A stretch of 7,549 bases of DNA, from positions 1,765 through 9,313 of the forward strand of contig PMLH01000321.1 in NCBI GenBank assembly GCA_003159055.1, given 5' to 3'. The notes under the pieces are model-generated. The model was not told where the DNA came from. It saw only the letters and a list, made by a program, of their open reading frames with translations, and did not search any database. A program made the translations under genes and the position numbers. The stretch comes from Myxococcales bacterium (lineage in GTDB: Bacteria > Myxococcota > Polyangia > Fen-1088). How positions within the stretch are numbered: position 1 is the first letter of the stretch; each line of letters begins with the position of its first letter. Positions 1 through 7,549 of the stretch are shown here, piece after piece.

Positions 1-312
1 CAGGCCGACCGCTGCGGCGCCCGAGGCAATCTGCAAGACACGCCACATCGCGAGCCCGGGGACAGCCCAGCGAATCGCGGTCACCACGGCAAGATGAAGC
101 AAGCTGGTTACGCCAAACACCGAGCCTTCGCCGACGTTCCAAGCCACGCCCGCGCCAGCCAACCCATGCTGGGCATAGCGCAAGTAGGTGTAGGCGTCGT
201 CGAAATCCGTCGGCGCCGCGTGCGCGAGGAACGTCAATCGCTCGATCGCCATCAGGGCGACGACGAGCAGCCCAGCGCCTCCAAGCAGCAAACTTCGCCG
301 TTGCACCAGCAC
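1..312 (-). CDS. GT-C-like membrane glycosyltransferase, N-terminal 104 residues (truncated by window edge)
   Basis: The gene starts at a GTG at 312-310 and stays open to base 1, so only the first 104 codons are present. A GTG at 306 is the alternative start. The start is well bounded: the stop codon of the upstream gene (318-316) is in the same frame two codons before it, and a purine-rich GGAAAGAGG sits 6-7 bases upstream. Residues about 8-23 form a hydrophobic segment. They are followed by TDFDDAYTYLRYAQHG (residues 35-50, Asp38-Asp39) and a second hydrophobic stretch from about 68. An acidic pair in the first periplasmic loop, followed by an aromatic/Arg-rich helix, is typical of polyprenyl-phosphate-sugar-dependent GT-C enzymes. 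The layout parallels the TDDAYISFRYARNL region of the enzyme at 4368-5924, so the two look paralogous. Donor and acceptor cannot be inferred. Only 3 bases separate it from the upstream stop, so translational coupling is likely. Confidence 0.8.
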   Translation of the reverse strand, partial: MLVQRRSLLLGGAGLLVVALMAIERLTFLAHAAPTDFDDAYTYLRYAQHGLAGAGVAWNVGEGSVFGVTSLLHLAVVTAIRWAVPGLAMWRVLQIASGAAAVGL

Positions 313-315
313 AGC

Positions 316-2268
316 CTACCTCTTTCCGCGCAGACGCTCTCGCTGCTCCCGCGCCGCTGGCGCAGAAACGTGGTTCGGCGACCGCGCCAGAAGCGCTGCG
401 AACGCAGCGTCGGCCTCTTCCGTTTTCCCGAGCGCGACCAGGCAGAGCCCGCGGCCAAAAGTCGCCTCGTCGTTGCGCGCGTCGGCGGCCAGCACCGATT
501 CGAAATCCGCAAGCGCCGGCCCGGCCCGCCCAATGCCAAGCAGAGCGAATCCATGATTGGCACGAGCCGCCGGTGCGCGCACCCCGTCGAGCAGATCCGC
601 CGCCTTGGAAAAATCACCGAGCTCAAGCGCCACCGCCCCAGCAGCGGCGCGCGCTTCGTCGCGACAGAGCGCTTCCCCTTCCGACGTCAAAGCGGCTTGG
701 TATTCGCTGCGAGCCACGGCCGCCTCGGCGACCGAATGATGGTAGTCGCCCAGGCGGCGCTGCCATTCGCATGGCGACGCCTTCGAACCGGCCGGCGCCT
801 TCGGAATCGGTACCGGCACCAGCCCCTCGGCCGTCGAATAGGCGAAGGTCAGCGGTATCTCCGGCAAGCTGCTCTGCAGGCTCCGTTTGACGAACACCAG
901 CCCATCGGTGGCGCGATAGACCAGTGCCCACAGCGCTGGATCGAAAAGTGCGCCACGCGGATTGACCGTGGGGTAGGTGATCAAGGCCGACGTGACGCCG
1001 AACTGGTCGAGCAGGGCCTGAAATTCTGCCCGCGACAGATCGGCGCGCCGGAGAACCGCGTGAAACGCCTCGGGGTACCCGTTGATGCGTGGGTCTTGGA
1101 ACACGCGGTATCGCGGCCAGCCTCGCCAAGTCAGGTACGACCCGACCTCCAAATCGTTGTACATTCGGTCGCGTAGGCCGTTTTTCTCGACGAAATCGAC
1201 GGCGGACAGCGGCACCAGATCCGGTTCCAGGCCAAGATCGAAGACACGATTGCCAGCAATCGCGGCCGCAACACGCGGAGTGGCCGCAAACCCCAGCAAC
1301 ACCGCAGCCGCAACCGCGGTGGCCCAAGCGCGACGCAGTCGCGGCACCAAGCGCGTAACCGCCACCGCTAAGGCCGGCCCGGCCAGCATGGCGAACTCCG
1401 CGACGAAACGAATGCGTAGACCGCCCAGCACGCCGAGCGCCAAGCTCGGCACGAGCACGCGCAAGGGGACCAGCCGCGGCAACCTGCGAAACACGACCGG
1501 GAGCAAGACAGCGACGACTAGACCGGCCAACAAAAAGAAGTACGGTCCGTCGAGCGGCCACTCGGCGTGCCGGTATTCCTGCAGCGGTCGCAGGGTCGGC
1601 ATGCGAAAGTGATTGGCAACGTAGGAAAGGCAGCGAAAACCCGACGGGGTCGCAAACATCAGCGGTACCAGTGCCAGCGACACCCACCATGCTCGCCGCG
1701 CCGCCAGAGATTGCCCATCCAGCCACGCGCCGAGGGCGTACAGCGCCAGCAGCGCCGGCGCGAGAAAGAAGCATGAGTTGGCATTGGCCCACAGAAGTCC
1801 CAGCGGCACCAGCAGCCAAAGCAGACGCGGCGCGCCCTTCTCGGCCCGCTCGATCGCAAGCAACGCGAGCGAGAGCCCGAGAAAGGTCACCAGATGCGGC
1901 CGCTCGACAAAGCGCGGTTCTGCGGCCCAGGCCGCGAGCGCAAGCAGCAGCGCCGCCGCCACGGGATGAGCGCCACGGCGCAGAGCCACGCGGTAGAGAA
2001 CAAGCCAGGTGCCACTCACGAATGCGGTCTTGAGCAGCACCGTCCCCGGAATTCCGCCGACGCGATGGACCAGCGCGAGGAGAACCTGGAACAGCCAGGC
2101 CAGATTGATGTCGCAGGCGTCGGGGACCGTGAACGAAAGCAGATTCTCCGTCGGCACGTGCCAAGTGCCGAGAACGATCTCGCCGAGACGCAGGTTAAAG
2201 AACAGATCGGTCTCGTCCATGGGGACAAGACATCGCCCGGCCACGAAGACGAGAAGCAGAACGATCAC
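316..2268 (-). CDS. Multi-pass GT-C-like membrane protein with C-terminal TPR region
   Basis: This 650-residue protein is predicted to be an inner-membrane protein. The start is a GTG at 2268; an in-frame TGA lies four codons upstream, so the gene cannot be longer. An ATG at residue 17 would remove the first hydrophobic stretch. Residues 1-16 are hydrophobic, followed by DETDLFFNLRLGE (18-30) and WHVPTENLLSFT (36-47). This acidic first loop and 'P..N.LSFT' pattern recur in a large uncharacterised bacterial GT-C-like family. Hydrophobic segments cover roughly 75-135, 145-185, 193-210, 240-260, 268-305 and 312-338. A soluble part, about 345-470, carries MYNDLEVGSYLTW and VFQDPRINGYPE, also typical of that family. 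Residues about 505-640 are Ala-rich helical pairs resembling three or four TPRs (for example FALLGIGRAGPALADFESVL). The likely role is envelope glycan transfer or assembly, with the TPRs recruiting a partner; this is inference. It lies 47 bases after the small gene and 3 bases before the next glycosyltransferase, consistent with one operon. Confidence 0.88.
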   Translation of the reverse strand: MIVLLLVFVAGRCLVPMDETDLFFNLRLGEIVLGTWHVPTENLLSFTVPDACDINLAWLFQVLLALVHRVGGIPGTVLLKTAFVSGTWLVLYRVALRRGAHPVAAALLLALAAWAAEPRFVERPHLVTFLGLSLALLAIERAEKGAPRLLWLLVPLGLLWANANSCFFLAPALLALYALGAWLDGQSLAARRAWWVSLALVPLMFATPSGFRCLSYVANHFRMPTLRPLQEYRHAEWPLDGPYFFLLAGLVVAVLLPVVFRRLPRLVPLRVLVPSLALGVLGGLRIRFVAEFAMLAGPALAVAVTRLVPRLRRAWATAVAAAVLLGFAATPRVAAAIAGNRVFDLGLEPDLVPLSAVDFVEKNGLRDRMYNDLEVGSYLTWRGWPRYRVFQDPRINGYPEAFHAVLRRADLSRAEFQALLDQFGVTSALITYPTVNPRGALFDPALWALVYRATDGLVFVKRSLQSSLPEIPLTFAYSTAEGLVPVPIPKAPAGSKASPCEWQRRLGDYHHSVAEAAVARSEYQAALTSEGEALCRDEARAAAGAVALELGDFSKAADLLDGVRAPAARANHGFALLGIGRAGPALADFESVLAADARNDEATFGRGLCLVALGKTEEADAAFAALLARSPNHVSAPAAREQRERLRGKR

Positions 2269-2270
2269 GT

Positions 2271-2287
2271 TTGGGCATCATGCCCAA
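2271..2287. promoter_or_regulatory. Perfect 7-bp inverted repeat abutting the GTG start of the TPR membrane protein gene
   Basis: TTGGGCA-TCA-TGCCCAA is a perfect dyad with a 3-base spacer. It ends two bases before the GTG start at 2268, in the 47-base gap after the small gene. In the mRNA it could fold over the ribosome-binding region, where no clear Shine-Dalgarno sequence is visible, or it could bind a protein as DNA. There is no T-run, so it is not a classical terminator. The function is unknown. Confidence 0.4.
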
Positions 2288-2315
2288 GCCTCACGTCGGC
2301 GCAACTAGCAACGGA

Positions 2316-2564
2316 TCAAGAAAGCAACCGGCCGCTCGGGACGAGTTGTTCCTCGGACGGGTCTTCCTCGCAGCCGGCAGGTACGTCATCTCCGATGGTT
2401 GCGTCGTCTTCCCGCTCGACGCGGGCAATCGAGATGTACTTGATTCGGAACGAATCGCCCCCCAGGCGCTTGAGCCCCCAGTCCATCGCGTCCTGCAGAT
2501 CGGCGAACATGGCCAGAGGTTGATGGGAACGGTCTGGGATAATGGCAAAGCAGCAAGGAATCAT
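2316..2564 (-). CDS. Small conserved-looking alpha/beta protein of unknown function, acidic C-terminus
   Basis: I do not recognise a family for this 82-residue protein. Residues 3-10 (PCCFAIIP) look like a beta strand, 16-20 like a second, DLQDAMDWGLKRLGG (22-36) like an amphipathic helix, and FRIKYISIARVE (39-50) like a strand. The tail from about 51 is acidic. Codon use supports coding: from residue 19 onward most codons end in G or C, whereas the first 18 codons are less biased. I chose the ATG at 2564 because it keeps the strand-helix-strand unit intact and has AAGG about 11 bases upstream. The ATG at 2510 is the alternative and lacks a visible ribosome site. The frame is open up to 2699, but that part overlaps the apparent promoter and enhancer and looks non-coding. 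As the first gene after a predicted sigma-54 promoter, it may be a regulatory or accessory partner of the membrane proteins that follow. That role is inferred from position only. Confidence 0.62.
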   Translation of the reverse strand: MIPCCFAIIPDRSHQPLAMFADLQDAMDWGLKRLGGDSFRIKYISIARVEREDDATIGDDVPAGCEEDPSEEQLVPSGRLLS

Positions 2565-2580
2565 GATAGCCGCCACCTTC

Positions 2581-2597
2581 TGCAGCCAGCGTGCCAG
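2581..2597 (-). promoter_or_regulatory. Predicted sigma-54 (-24/-12) promoter
   Basis: Read on the minus strand this is CTGGCACGCTGGCTGCA. The consensus is TGGCACG-N4-TTGCA/T, so all seven -24 bases match, the 4-base spacer is right, and only the first base of the -12 element differs (C for T). The invariant GG (2595-2594) and GC (2583-2582) are 12 bases apart, as required. Transcription would start near 2570 and run into the small gene at 2564-2316 and the two membrane-protein genes. It sits directly downstream of a sigma-54 activator gene, which strengthens the call. An odd point is that the leader would be only about 6 bases if translation starts at 2564, versus about 60 bases for the ATG at 2510. 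Confidence 0.7.
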
Positions 2598-2644
2598 AGA
2601 TCCATTCCCATGATTCCCGCAGCTTACGGTCGCCCTTGCACGAT

Positions 2645-2677
2645 CGATCTCAACTTGTCCGATCCCAATTGAGATCG
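2645..2677. promoter_or_regulatory. Three-half-site palindromic element, candidate activator enhancer (UAS)
   Basis: On the plus strand there are three related 9-mers: CGATCTCAA (2645-2653), CGATCCCAA (2660-2668) and TTGAGATCG (2669-2677). The second and third abut to form an 18-bp dyad, CGATCCCAATTGAGATCG, with one mismatched pair. The first and third form a perfect 9-bp inverted repeat with a 15-base spacer. The dyad centre is about 98 bases upstream of the predicted sigma-54 start near 2570. That is the usual distance for enhancers bound by Fis-type helix-turn-helix activators. A terminator for the activator gene is the alternative, but the long loop and lack of a U-run argue against it. 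Confidence 0.55.
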
Positions 2678-2714
2678 CAGGGGTGAGGACTCGCCTCACC
2701 AGGCTGGCCGCGCG

Positions 2715-4175
2715 CTAGCGTCTCGGGCGCGGCAGGCCGAGGGCGGCCAGCTTCTTGACCAGCGTACGTCTCGCGATACCGAGGACCGCCGCCGCTCGGG
2801 TCTGGTTTCCCCCGCACAGTGCCAGCGCCTCTTCGATTTTCTCACGCTCGGCTGATTCCGAGCTGTCGTCGCTGCGCTCAATCGCCAATTCCAGCGTCTT
2901 GGGGCTCTGGCGCCCAACCAGCGGTTCTTGGCTCGGATTCACATCATGTTCCGTCAGCGTCTCTGACGTCGACAGCAAGATCCCGCGCTCGACGCAGTTG
3001 CGAAGCTCACGCACGTTGCCGGGCCATGGCTGCTGTTCGAGGAAACGCAGGGCCTCCGGCGTGAACGAAGGCTGGCCCTGTTTGCCAAGGGCCACCGCGG
3101 CTTCGATGGCGAATTGCACCGCCATCGGCGCGATCTCCGAGCGACGAACACGCAAAGGCGGCACTTCCAGGATCACGCCACTCAGACGAAAATACAGGTC
3201 CTCACGGAACTGGCCCTTGCGAATGCGATCCTGCAAATCGCGGTTGGTCGCTGCCAGAAAACGCACGTCCAGCTTGCGCACGCGCGTGCCCCCGAGGGGA
3301 AGCACCTCGCGGGTCTCGATCACGCGCAGAAGCTTGGCTTGGATTGCCAGCGGCATTTCGCCGATCTCGTCGAGCAGCACGGTGCCGCCGTTGGCCGTCT
3401 CGAACAGCCCGGGCTTGGGCGAACGCGCACCGCTGAACGCGCCGGCCTCGTAGCCGAACAGCTCGCTTTCCAGCAGATTCTCCGGGAACGCAGAACAGTT
3501 CAACTTGACGTAGGGCTTACCCTTGCGAGGCGAACGCTCGTGAATTGCAGTCGCCACGACTTCCTTGCCGACACCGGTCTCGCCAATGAGCAGCACGGAT
3601 ATCGTGCCTGGGGCAATGCGATCGACGAGTTGGAAGAGCTTCTGCATCGCCTCGGACTGGACGACCAGCTTGCCCGCCGAGGCCTTCGCCTCGTCCGCAC
3701 CCTTCTCGCTCGCGCGCAACGCCTGGATGTGCTCGCCTGCCATGACGACCTCGCGCACCTCGGAAATTCCCATGGATGGAAGTTGGTGCACCACGAGAGA
3801 CGCTCCCCCGATGATAATTGCGACGCCGGGCGGAACGGGCTCTTCGCGGCTTGGCGAAACTTGCTTGGTGCCAACCCGCGTGCCGTTGGCGCTGCCAAGG
3901 TCCTTGACCAGGACAATCCGGTCGCGAACGACCAGGCTGGCGTGGTTGCGAGAAACCGAGGGGCTGCCAAGAACGATGTCGCTGTCTTCCGAGCGCCCGA
4001 CGCTCAAGCTCCCCGATTCTGGCATCGGCATCATCTTCGAGCCGGATTGCTCGAAGACCGTGAGCCACAGGCGCGTGCCCGCGCCCGAGCCTGCACCTTG
4101 ACGTTCTTCGATCAAGGTCTTCGGCAGAATCTTTGGACCGCCCTCGTGGTCGGGAGGCGACGACAGCAACGGCAT
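2715..4175 (-). CDS. FHA-domain sigma-54-dependent transcriptional activator (bacterial enhancer-binding protein)
   Basis: This 486-residue cytosolic activator would remodel sigma-54 RNA polymerase by ATP hydrolysis. The FHA domain, about 57-130, has the phosphothreonine-binding signature: GRS (60-62), SRNHA (75-79) and SANGT (95-99). The AAA+ domain, about 170-410, has Walker A GETGVGKE (198-205), the sigma-54 contact loop as GAFSGA (245-250), Walker B VLLDEIG (266-272), sensor I AATNRD (308-313), arginine-finger candidates Arg324 and Arg330, and sensor [12 protein letters not shown] (384-393). A Fis-type helix-turn-helix occupies about 445-480 ([20 protein letters not shown]). There is no receiver domain, so input probably comes through FHA binding of a phosphorylated partner. 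The ATG at 4175 is the only sensible start because TAA lies four codons upstream; the ribosome site is weak. The Ser in GAFSGA replaces the usual Thr. The downstream intergenic region carries a sigma-54 promoter and an enhancer-like palindrome, suggesting it activates the adjacent operon. Confidence 0.95.
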
Positions 4176-4210
4176 ACGATGTTCATCTTAGCTCATGAGG
4201 CTTCGGTTTG

Positions 4211-4229
4211 TGTCAGAGACCTGCTGACA
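4211..4229. promoter_or_regulatory. Small inverted repeat upstream of the activator gene
   Basis: TGTCAG-AGACCTG-CTGACA has perfect 6-bp arms around a 7-base spacer, centred about 45 bases upstream of the activator's start at 4175. The position suits an operator in its promoter region, possibly for autoregulation. I see no convincing -35/-10 pair nearby. Short arms in GC-rich DNA can arise by chance. Confidence 0.3.
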
Positions 4230-4265
4230 TCGACATACGTAGCCACACGCGCCGCGTTTGCAGGA

Positions 4266-4369
4266 CCGCGCCAGAGCTGTCGATCGGACCGCCGCGGCGA
4301 ACACGTGCGCAGCAGAAAAGGACCAATCGGATCACGCCTGTGCCCGGCGACCGCCGCGACAGAGCTGTC
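4266..4369. repeat. Two near-identical 16-bp direct repeats, 88 bp apart, in the region upstream of the activator gene
   Basis: CCGCGCCAGAGCTGTC (4266-4281) and CCGCGACAGAGCTGTC (4354-4369) differ at one base. The second overlaps the stop codon (4370-4368) of the upstream glycosyltransferase gene and is part of a dyad (GACAG-AG-CTGTC). A further shared 10-mer, GACCGCCGCG, occurs near each copy (4287 and 4349). They could be binding sites controlling the activator gene or a small duplication. Apart from these repeats and the inverted repeat at 4211-4229, I see nothing definite in the 192 bases between genes. Confidence 0.4.
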
Positions 4370-5924
4370 ACGGCATCGCGGGAAACGGACCGAGGGCATG
4401 GTCCCGCCGCTTGAGGAAGCTGTAAAACGACGACGTGCCGTCGGAGGAGGTGGTGGTTGCGCGCACCCATTCATAGCCGGCCGGGGTGGTGCCGTTCTCG
4501 ACCGCGCAGTGCCGGCCGAGGCAGTAGTGGTGCGTGATCAGCGTCGGTTGGCGCGACAACATGTATTCGTCGCTGCCCCACTTCTGGTGGCCAGGACGGT
4601 TGGAAGCCGTCATGCGTGGGTCGTGCGCGATGGTCGCGTCGACCAAGCCGAAAACGTCGTAGGCGGGAATCTCGGAGTAGTAAGGAATGACCCCCGCACC
4701 GCCGACCGTCATCAGAAGGTCGGGCTGCCAGTACCGCGCCAGCCATTGCCCGACCGGGATGCGCTCTTCGGCGTATTTCTTCAGATAGGCGGGCGTGTCG
4801 ATGCCGTCGTCGGCGCCGACAAAGGTGCGTGCCTCTTGCGTTGTGTGCACACTGCCGACGACGAATCCCGCCCCGACCATCAGCAGCCCGAGCGCGGGAA
4901 CCAGCGCCCCGAAGAGCGGGCGCAGCTGGGCAAAAAGGCGCCGCGCCGATTCCGCCAACACCACGGCCCCCAGTGGAAACACGGGCAGGATGAAACGGTA
5001 GAGCCCCATGAAGTCACCGCCGACCTTCACAACGTACGCGGCATAGGCCAGCCACACCAGCCCAGCCAGGCGGCGCAAGTCCCGACGGCGCTCGTCGCTC
5101 TTGGCCGCGCGCCCAAACAGAGCGAGCAAGAGCAGAAAGTGCACACCGTAGTCTTCAGAGAAGCGGCGCAAGTAGTACGTGCCGAGCTTCCAGGTTCCGC
5201 TGGCGCCCGATGACTTCACGTAGAAGGTGTTCGGGAAGAACCAGCCGTAGTAATGCCAACGCCACAGAAAGTAGGGAGCAAACAGCAGGACGAAAACCCC
5301 GATCCAGGCGATTTCATGCCTGCGCGGCAAGAATCGACGCTCGCGCTGCAAGCTCGTGAGCGCGCGAAACAGCGCCACCAGCCCGAAGAGCAGCACGCCT
5401 TCCGGCCTGGTCATGGCCGCGAAGGCGAAGACCACCGCGCTACGCCAGCCTCTGCCGACCGTGACCTCGCCCAGGACCAAGTCGAAGCCCAAGGTGACAA
5501 GGAAGGTGAAGAGTTGGGTTTCGAGCCCGCCCGCACACCAGCATGCGAAAGCACCCATGCTCGCGAGCACGAGTGGCGCGACCACGTTCCAACGCGAGCG
5601 GCGCTCGCCTGCGAGCCGCAGCGACATCCGCACGACGACGGCCAAGGTCCCGATCCCGAACGCAACGCCCAAGAAGCGCGAAAGCATCACCGGGCCAAAC
5701 CCTAGCTTGATGCCGATGGCGAGCAGCACGGTCCAAAGAAAGTTGGTATAGCCCTCCACGCGCTCGCCCAGGTTGAACACCAGCTCGCCCGAGAGCGCCA
5801 GATTGCGCGCGTACCGGAACGAGATGTACGCGTCGTCGGTGACGAAATCGAACAATCGTGCGTGCGGCACAAGCACGGCCGTCGCAAGCAAGAGCGGATA
5901 GTATCGTCGCAAGAATTTCTTCAT
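4368..5924 (-). CDS. GT-C family membrane glycosyltransferase
   Basis: This is a 518-residue inner-membrane protein, numbered here from the ATG at 5924 (MKKFLRRYYP). A GTG at 5954 would add ten residues; neither start has a strong ribosome site. The ATG gives a normal positive-then-hydrophobic N-terminus. TM1 covers about 8-22, followed by the periplasmic-loop motif TDDAYISFRYARNL (29-42, Asp30-Asp31), then GERVEGYTNFLW. Asp pairs at this point are catalytic in GT-C enzymes that use polyprenyl-phosphate sugars. About ten hydrophobic segments extend to about residue 358. GGDFMGLYRF (302-311) is a hallmark shared with bacterial arabinofuranosyl- and related GT-C proteins. Residues about 363-518 are a soluble periplasmic domain with IPYYSEIPAYDVFGLVD (413-429) and SDEYMLSRQP. 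It should transfer a sugar to an envelope glycan, lipid or protein; neither donor nor acceptor can be read from the sequence. It follows the MIF-like gene by 48 bases and resembles the partial gene at the left edge. Confidence 0.9.
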   Translation of the reverse strand: MKKFLRRYYPLLLATAVLVPHARLFDFVTDDAYISFRYARNLALSGELVFNLGERVEGYTNFLWTVLLAIGIKLGFGPVMLSRFLGVAFGIGTLAVVVRMSLRLAGERRSRWNVVAPLVLASMGAFACWCAGGLETQLFTFLVTLGFDLVLGEVTVGRGWRSAVVFAFAAMTRPEGVLLFGLVALFRALTSLQRERRFLPRRHEIAWIGVFVLLFAPYFLWRWHYYGWFFPNTFYVKSSGASGTWKLGTYYLRRFSEDYGVHFLLLLALFGRAAKSDERRRDLRRLAGLVWLAYAAYVVKVGGDFMGLYRFILPVFPLGAVVLAESARRLFAQLRPLFGALVPALGLLMVGAGFVVGSVHTTQEARTFVGADDGIDTPAYLKKYAEERIPVGQWLARYWQPDLLMTVGGAGVIPYYSEIPAYDVFGLVDATIAHDPRMTASNRPGHQKWGSDEYMLSRQPTLITHHYCLGRHCAVENGTTPAGYEWVRATTTSSDGTSSFYSFLKRRDHALGPFPAMP

Positions 5925-6382: not shown

Positions 6383-6417
6383 GCCGGAGCCGGGACGGGG
6401 CACGGAACCGGAACCGG
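6383..6417. repeat. Degenerate GC-rich hexamer array 3' of the kinase gene
   Basis: Read in steps of six from 6383, the sequence is GCCGGA, GCCGGG, ACGGGG, CACGGA, ACCGGA, ACCGG, a decayed run of the CCGGRR unit. The last units form the left arm of the hairpin at 6405-6433. The same unit, in perfect form, lies on the other side of the kinase gene (7514-7549). Confidence 0.55.
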
Positions 6418-6433
6418 CCACCGGTTCCGGTTC
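6405..6433 (-). terminator. Strong hairpin at the 3' end of the kinase gene
   Basis: GAACCGGAACCGG (6405-6417) and CCGGTTCCGGTTC (6421-6433) are perfect 13-bp arms separated by three bases. The hairpin begins at the last base of the kinase stop codon (6435-6433), which is where a 3'-end stem-loop is expected. There is no U-run on either side, so classic intrinsic termination is doubtful. Transcript protection, Rho-assisted termination or simply inverted hexamer repeats are equally possible. Confidence 0.5.
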
Positions 6434-7513: not shown

Positions 7514-7549
7514 CCGGAACCGGGGCCGGAACCGGGGCCGGGGCCGGGG
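7514..7549. repeat. Perfect CCGGRR hexamer tandem repeat, running off the right edge
   Basis: There are six consecutive units on the plus strand: CCGGAA, CCGGGG, CCGGAA, CCGGGG, CCGGGG, CCGGGG. The array lies about 20 bases upstream of the kinase promoter box and continues beyond the window. Each CCGG is self-complementary, so the array can fold on either strand. It shares its unit with the repeats at 6383-6433. Confidence 0.75.

Follow-up and report, generated by a model that had tools for sequence, protein, structure and literature searches.

A probable sigma-54 promoter between an FHA-type activator gene and a small gene of a Myxococcales bacterium, with a predicted near-leaderless start

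A sigma-54 promoter paired with its activator is a well-known kind of regulatory module; to our knowledge, the targets of most sigma-54 activators of Myxococcota are not known. Myxococcota are counted among the lineages rich in such activators (PMC12316311), and for M. xanthus the sigma-54 consensus is given as TGGCACG-N4-TTGC(T/A) (PMC9765219). Surveys of these activators place GAFSGA among the loop variants that are compatible with activation (PMC4641369, PMC6615313). The locus described here, a 7,549-nt stretch of DNA from a Myxococcales bacterium (contig PMLH01000321.1) referred to throughout as the window, carries a module of this kind. Taken jointly, the data make it likely that a genuine sigma-54 promoter of a small gene is present, that the neighbouring FHA activator acts on it via half-sites and that the small gene has a near-leaderless start. 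The activator subclade, the candidate operator, the conserved promoter and the target gene lie on one piece of DNA, which makes the pair directly testable.

The features of the window are collected in Table 1, in which the label "membrane" reflects a reading of the protein sequences. It had been proposed that the site faces an operon of the small gene and two membrane-protein genes; all three do lie on the same strand, but the site abuts the small gene rather than simply facing it. A gap of 47 nt separates the stop of the small gene from the first of the membrane-protein genes (2268-316), which would belong to the same putative operon. On the far side of the activator, the MIF-like gene sits between the Ser/Thr kinase gene and a membrane-protein gene. 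G+C-rich GGAACCGG-type repeats are found at 6405-6433 and 7515-7549, of which the first closely follows the kinase gene and consists of two perfectly matching inverted 13-nt arms, 3 nt apart; it might be a terminator or a short repeat of the mobile type. Additionally, four genomes (L087, L089-L091) encode a Ser/Thr kinase 39-40% identical to that of the window within a few kb of an FHA activator, hinting at a pairing of kinase and FHA activator.

Table 1 Features of the window and the basis on which each was assigned
Feature	Position	Strand	Basis or remark
Ser/Thr kinase	7485-6433	minus	
MIF-like protein	6326-5973	minus	Pfam MIF
Membrane protein	5954-4368	minus	
FHA - AAA+ sigma-54 activator (bEBP) - Fis HTH, 486 aa, GAFSGA loop	2715..4175	minus	Pfam
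Hairpin GGTGAGG-N5-CCTCACC	2682..2700		inverted repeat just after activator stop, without T run
Palindrome CGATCCCAATTGAGATCG, candidate activator (enhancer) site	2660..2677		inverted repeat; centre about -98 from predicted start
Extra half-site CGATCTCAA	2645..2653	+	perfect inverted repeat with 2669-2677
Upstream arm GGAATCATG of promoter-flanking inverted repeat	2609..2617	minus	inverted repeat
Probable sigma-54 promoter site CTGGCACGCTGGCTGCA	2597-2581	minus	TGGCACG-N4-CTGCA read from sequence
-24 element TGGCACG	2590..2596	minus	consensus match
-12 element CTGCA	2581..2585	minus	one mismatch to TTGCA
Predicted transcription start (+1)	2570	minus	12 nt after C2582, standard -24/-12 geometry
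Downstream arm CATGATTCC, holds small-gene start codon	2557..2565	minus	pairs with 2609-2617 in fold
Small gene, 82 aa (MIPCCFAIIPD...), no named family	2316..2564	minus	relatives; structure model
Membrane protein, weak C-terminal TPR matches, possible operon gene	316..2268	minus	TPR below Pfam cut-off
Further membrane-protein gene, start portion, cut by window end	1..312	minus	no Pfam family

The near-perfect minus-strand site of the original prediction is present where it had been placed, and differs from the M. xanthus consensus at one of 12 specified bases. It agrees with TGGCAYR-N4-TTGCW at 11 of the 12 specified bases, including the GG-N10-GC core (G2595/G2594 and G2583/C2582) by which a sigma-54 promoter is recognized, and it is the sole site in the window with at most one mismatch. 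The match alone would be weak evidence, because dinucleotide shuffling of the whole window gives a site with at most one mismatch to TGGCAYRN4TTGCW in 21% of 300 cases. Its position is more telling: shuffling the 150-nt gap between the activator and the small gene (2565-2714) yields a site of the same quality in 14 of 5000 cases, in keeping with the proposal that activator and site stand side by side for reasons other than chance. The site begins 117 nt after the stop of the FHA-AAA+-Fis gene, downstream of which it had been reported, and the small gene opens at ATG 2564, 17 nt beyond C2582. As a background, 695 ATG-started open reading frames of at least 200 aa from 98 loci have nine one-mismatch sites at distances of 5-179 nt from their starts, but the 14-17 nt spacing is not represented; a perfect site, in L053, is 9 nt away.

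The activator itself has the domains expected of a bEBP, namely an AAA+ sigma-54 interaction domain with the Walker motifs GETGVGKE and LLDE and a Fis HTH, with Pfam matches to FHA (1.3e-14), Sigma54_activat (2.6e-66) and HTH_8 (2.1e-12). Its relatives number 457, of which the 120 listed comprise 57 close clusters (at least 63% identical) and 63 distant ones. Linkage to the small gene was measured by whether the longest contig of an activator cluster has the same length as, and a common source with, that of one of 122 small-protein clusters. Among the matches listed, such equal-length, common-source contigs are found for 17 of the 57 close activator clusters, the window's own included, with one more alike in length though not in source, and for none of the 63 distant ones, two of which (P0216 and P0231) agree in length only. 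P0151 and P0179 both match the small-protein cluster P0026, and if P0151 and P0026 share a contig of 1796 nt, an activator of 491 aa and a small protein of 68 aa nearly fill it. One match, P0178 with P0058 (1120 nt), was not counted, since the sources differ and the contig would have no room for both genes next to each other. The linkage between activator and small gene thus seems to be kept in relatives, on indirect evidence that would be hard to get by chance. A search of genome contigs with the activator returned at least 80 loci, with the top-ranked one 47% identical over residues 166-486 and none more than 51% identical among the matches listed. An NtrC-type activator is encoded at one of the loci, L038, in a record titled as a MAG of Bifidobacterium breve; its genome (G113) is numbered with a sample from the phylum of G002, a "Myxococcales" MAG, and the title looks wrong.

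The gap between the two genes holds candidate sites at which the activator might bind. The palindrome lies near -98, a position that would suit an activator site, although it is only mildly unusual: shuffling the gap gives an ungapped palindrome of two 9-nt arms with no more than one mismatch in 40 of 2000 cases, and admitting gaps of 0-6 raises this to 197 of 2000. Together with the extra half-site it may form a UAS; an exact 9-nt inverted repeat with arms at most 20 nt apart occurs in 16 of 2000 shuffles. A scan of 2250-4400 gave no terminator-like site, and a search of Rfam gave nothing at the gathering threshold. Polyangia-type genomes contain many activator candidates (29-242 per genome at first look, among the matches listed), and the promoter could be real but driven by another of them, with the neighbour merely genetically linked and acting elsewhere. 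We regard this as rather improbable, given the equal-length, common-source contigs that the close activator clusters share with small-protein clusters and the candidate half-sites in the gap.

The small protein belongs to a family that has no Pfam name. No Pfam family was found for it, and of 68 relatives three show a single weak match to a DUF (E 0.06-0.18). A profile search gave 232 small-protein relatives, 120 of them listed. The structure model has a beta-beta-alpha-beta core and a disordered tail (block pLDDT 82-95 for residues 1-50, pTM 0.49), and structure comparison of this model returned no trustworthy fold match. Searches of genome samples gave matches in 0/20, 0/183, 0/35, 0/31 and 0/217 genomes, in 0/202 with profile A1, and in 2/377, 3/18, 3/289 and 1/358, the last apparently the same draw as the 377. 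The credible matches are distant homologues, 41-48% identical, and none of the genome samples searched holds a close relative; one of the two matches among the 377, in G117, was judged spurious, as it falls in an 848-aa frame with a stop. Searches for orthologous DNA gave no match in plasmids and none that was confirmed in viral contigs. L081, L083-L086 and P0083-P0121 are short proteins of a wide family that shares a core resembling CFAIIPD...LEDAMDWGL and has no Pfam name; one genome (G405) has three matches to it. The apparent control of the small protein by a dedicated activator would fit a role as a conditional regulator or an adaptor.

Where this protein starts determines how the promoter is to be read. 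The 82-aa query has 82 relatives, the window's own included, of which 49 are annotated from the ATG, 17 with 4-23 extra residues, 15 from an internal FADLQ and one otherwise, and the conserved block round CCFAIIPD extends to far relatives. On these grounds ATG 2564 is taken as the start codon, and the extra residues of the 17 are taken as upstream DNA in frame. With C2582 at -12, transcription is predicted to begin at 2570, which puts the ATG at +7 and leaves a 6-nt leader. The original prediction had named this start, but overlooked that an ATG follows about 6 nt later. Across eight relatives with long extensions, the predicted 5' leader would be 3-6 nt (14-17 nt spacing, from geometry only). 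Five Shine-Dalgarno motifs (AGGAGG, AGGAG, GGAGG, GAGG and AGGA) were sought 4-12 nt before the ATG. In six of these eight extensions none of the five can be encoded, and the window has none either; of the other two extensions, P0047 is compatible with every one of the motifs and P0041 with AGGA only. The window has GAAGGTGG before the ATG, a weaker Shine-Dalgarno-like stretch that falls outside the five motifs and upstream of the predicted start. An ordinary leader would result if a real promoter were combined with translation from M19 (MFADLQ), close to where the FADLQ-annotated relatives begin, or with a transcription start further upstream. To this we give only a slim chance: the MxxCCFAIIPD block is most likely translated, because conservation of its protein sequence reaches past the close clade, and the scarcity of codable Shine-Dalgarno motifs before the ATG also speaks against it.

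Conservation of the GG/GC core in relatives, which had been proposed as a check, was read through the translated N-terminal extensions of metagenomic relatives rather than through DNA, so that the codons themselves are unseen. The 17 extensions fall into eight of 11-23 residues, five of 8-9 and four of 4-5, the last being too short for a test of the site. Each of the eight was scored by the fewest mismatches that any DNA coding for it would have to TGGCAYRN4TTGCW with the C of GC 14-17 nt before the ATG. All eight extensions of at least 11 residues are compatible with the consensus, six with no mismatch and two with one, a result of 0-1 mismatch that random stop-free extensions (63% GC) reach in 0.3-0.7% of cases. 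With spacings of 13-18 nt, the mismatches over the eight sum to 2, compared with a minimum sum of 14 for letter-shuffled patterns and of 20 for residue-shuffled sets (0/2000 as good as the real one in either case), although the eight are mutually related and the shuffles overstate their independence. Among the extensions of 8-9 residues, the TGC of the -12 core is allowed in all five, at 16 nt in three of them and at 15 nt, which is a third frame, in the other two; random extensions of that length allow it in 22-23%. Extensions from another subfamily (n=5) need five mismatches each at 14-17 nt spacing and 2-5 at any spacing. For the distant homologues L081, L083 and L084, a scan of the 200 nt that precede their guessed starts gave nothing better than two mismatches, the best site being that of L084, which starts 130 nt upstream. 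The conservation across the extensions, as judged from translations, is the strongest evidence for the promoter.

The reading frames separate a DNA element from a peptide. In six extensions (P0009, P0010, P0014, P0017, P0041 and P0058) and the window, the site would lie in frame 1 (17 or 14 nt), and the residues of these seven rows are L/V, A (7/7), R/Q/H/Y, a free position, L (7/7) and Q (7/7). This pattern, [LV]-A-[RQHY]-x-L-Q, is what NTG-GCA-YRN-NNN-YTG-CAR dictates, so that the residues follow the rules of the DNA. P0047 and P0053, in turn, hold the site in frame 2 (16 nt), and it is accordingly not a conserved peptide. A longer mechanical reading frame does begin at GTG 2699 and stays open through the site, and the recurrence of [LV]AxxLQ in six relatives could be taken to mean that the motif is part of a coding N-terminal extension and only looks like a promoter; this is very improbable, as it is already contradicted by the different residues with which P0047 and P0053 keep the element and by the 49 of 82 relatives annotated from the ATG. 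A chance match, to which the frequency of one-mismatch sites in shuffled windows might point, is close to negligible in view of the compatibility of the extensions at a nearly fixed distance, which already contradicts it.

As far as sequence can tell, the original prediction was right about the promoter, and its assignment of the activator is a fair guess. The data are compatible with a model in which the FHA domain senses a phosphorylated partner and the activator then binds, probably, to the palindromic half-sites at 2645-2677. Its GAFSGA loop would contact a waiting complex of RNA polymerase and sigma-54 and open the promoter, transcription would begin near 2570, leaving about 6 nt of message ahead of the start codon at 2564, and translation could proceed as it does on leaderless mRNAs, with no Shine-Dalgarno site. 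A further layer may be added by the inverted repeat that flanks the promoter. A read-through RNA (2630-2545) is predicted to fold at -32.9 kcal/mol with the start codon paired (z -2.37, 1/200 shuffles as good), and the fold of the RNA from 2570 to 2500 is not unusual (z -0.11). In three of four far-reaching extensions (the window, P0009 and P0010) GGAATCAT can be encoded at the same place; P0053 cannot code it (4 mismatches). It is conceivable, if unlikely, that these arms form a double gate, in which GGAATCATG paired with CATGATTCC hides the start codon in read-through RNA, the sigma-54 transcript lacks the 5' arm and exposes the near-leaderless start, and protein is made only from the latter.

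A conserved sigma-54 promoter with an ATG 3-6 nt after the transcription start would, if true, link sigma-54 control with leaderless translation; searches of an open-access library brought up no such connection in print. In its domains, the activator resembles that of Pendulispora rubella (P0186), which is 49% identical and likewise has FHA, AAA+ sigma-54 and Fis HTH domains; a closer relative, P0169 from a "Polyangia bacterium", is 67% identical. These two suggest an uncultured relative of the Polyangia as the source of the window, a placement to which the genome samples, with no close relative of the small gene among them, lend no help. The loop sets the window's clade apart: among the matches listed, GAFSGA is found in 55 of 57 close and five of 63 distant activators, whereas the distant, Polyangia-type FHA activators mostly have GAFTGA (48 of 63, against two of 57 close ones; 10 distant ones have no match to the motif pattern). 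In Bradyrhizobium, Sinorhizobium and Leptospira, leaderless genes have their transcription start at or 0-10 nt from the start codon (PMC4842269, PMC3616915, PMC5243855), comparable to the start predicted here, but those of Bradyrhizobium are described with an extended -10 element (TGnTA) upstream (PMC4842269), in contrast to the -24/-12 element of the window. The sigma-54 promoters controlled by Nla28 and Nla6 in M. xanthus combine the consensus TGGCACG-N4-TTGC(T/A) with activator half-sites in the promoter region (PMC9765219), as the window would with its candidate half-sites. Many of them are placed within coding sequences, and long leaders are discussed for some (PMC9765219), whereas the promoter of the window and its relatives would place the ATG only 3-6 nt after the predicted start.
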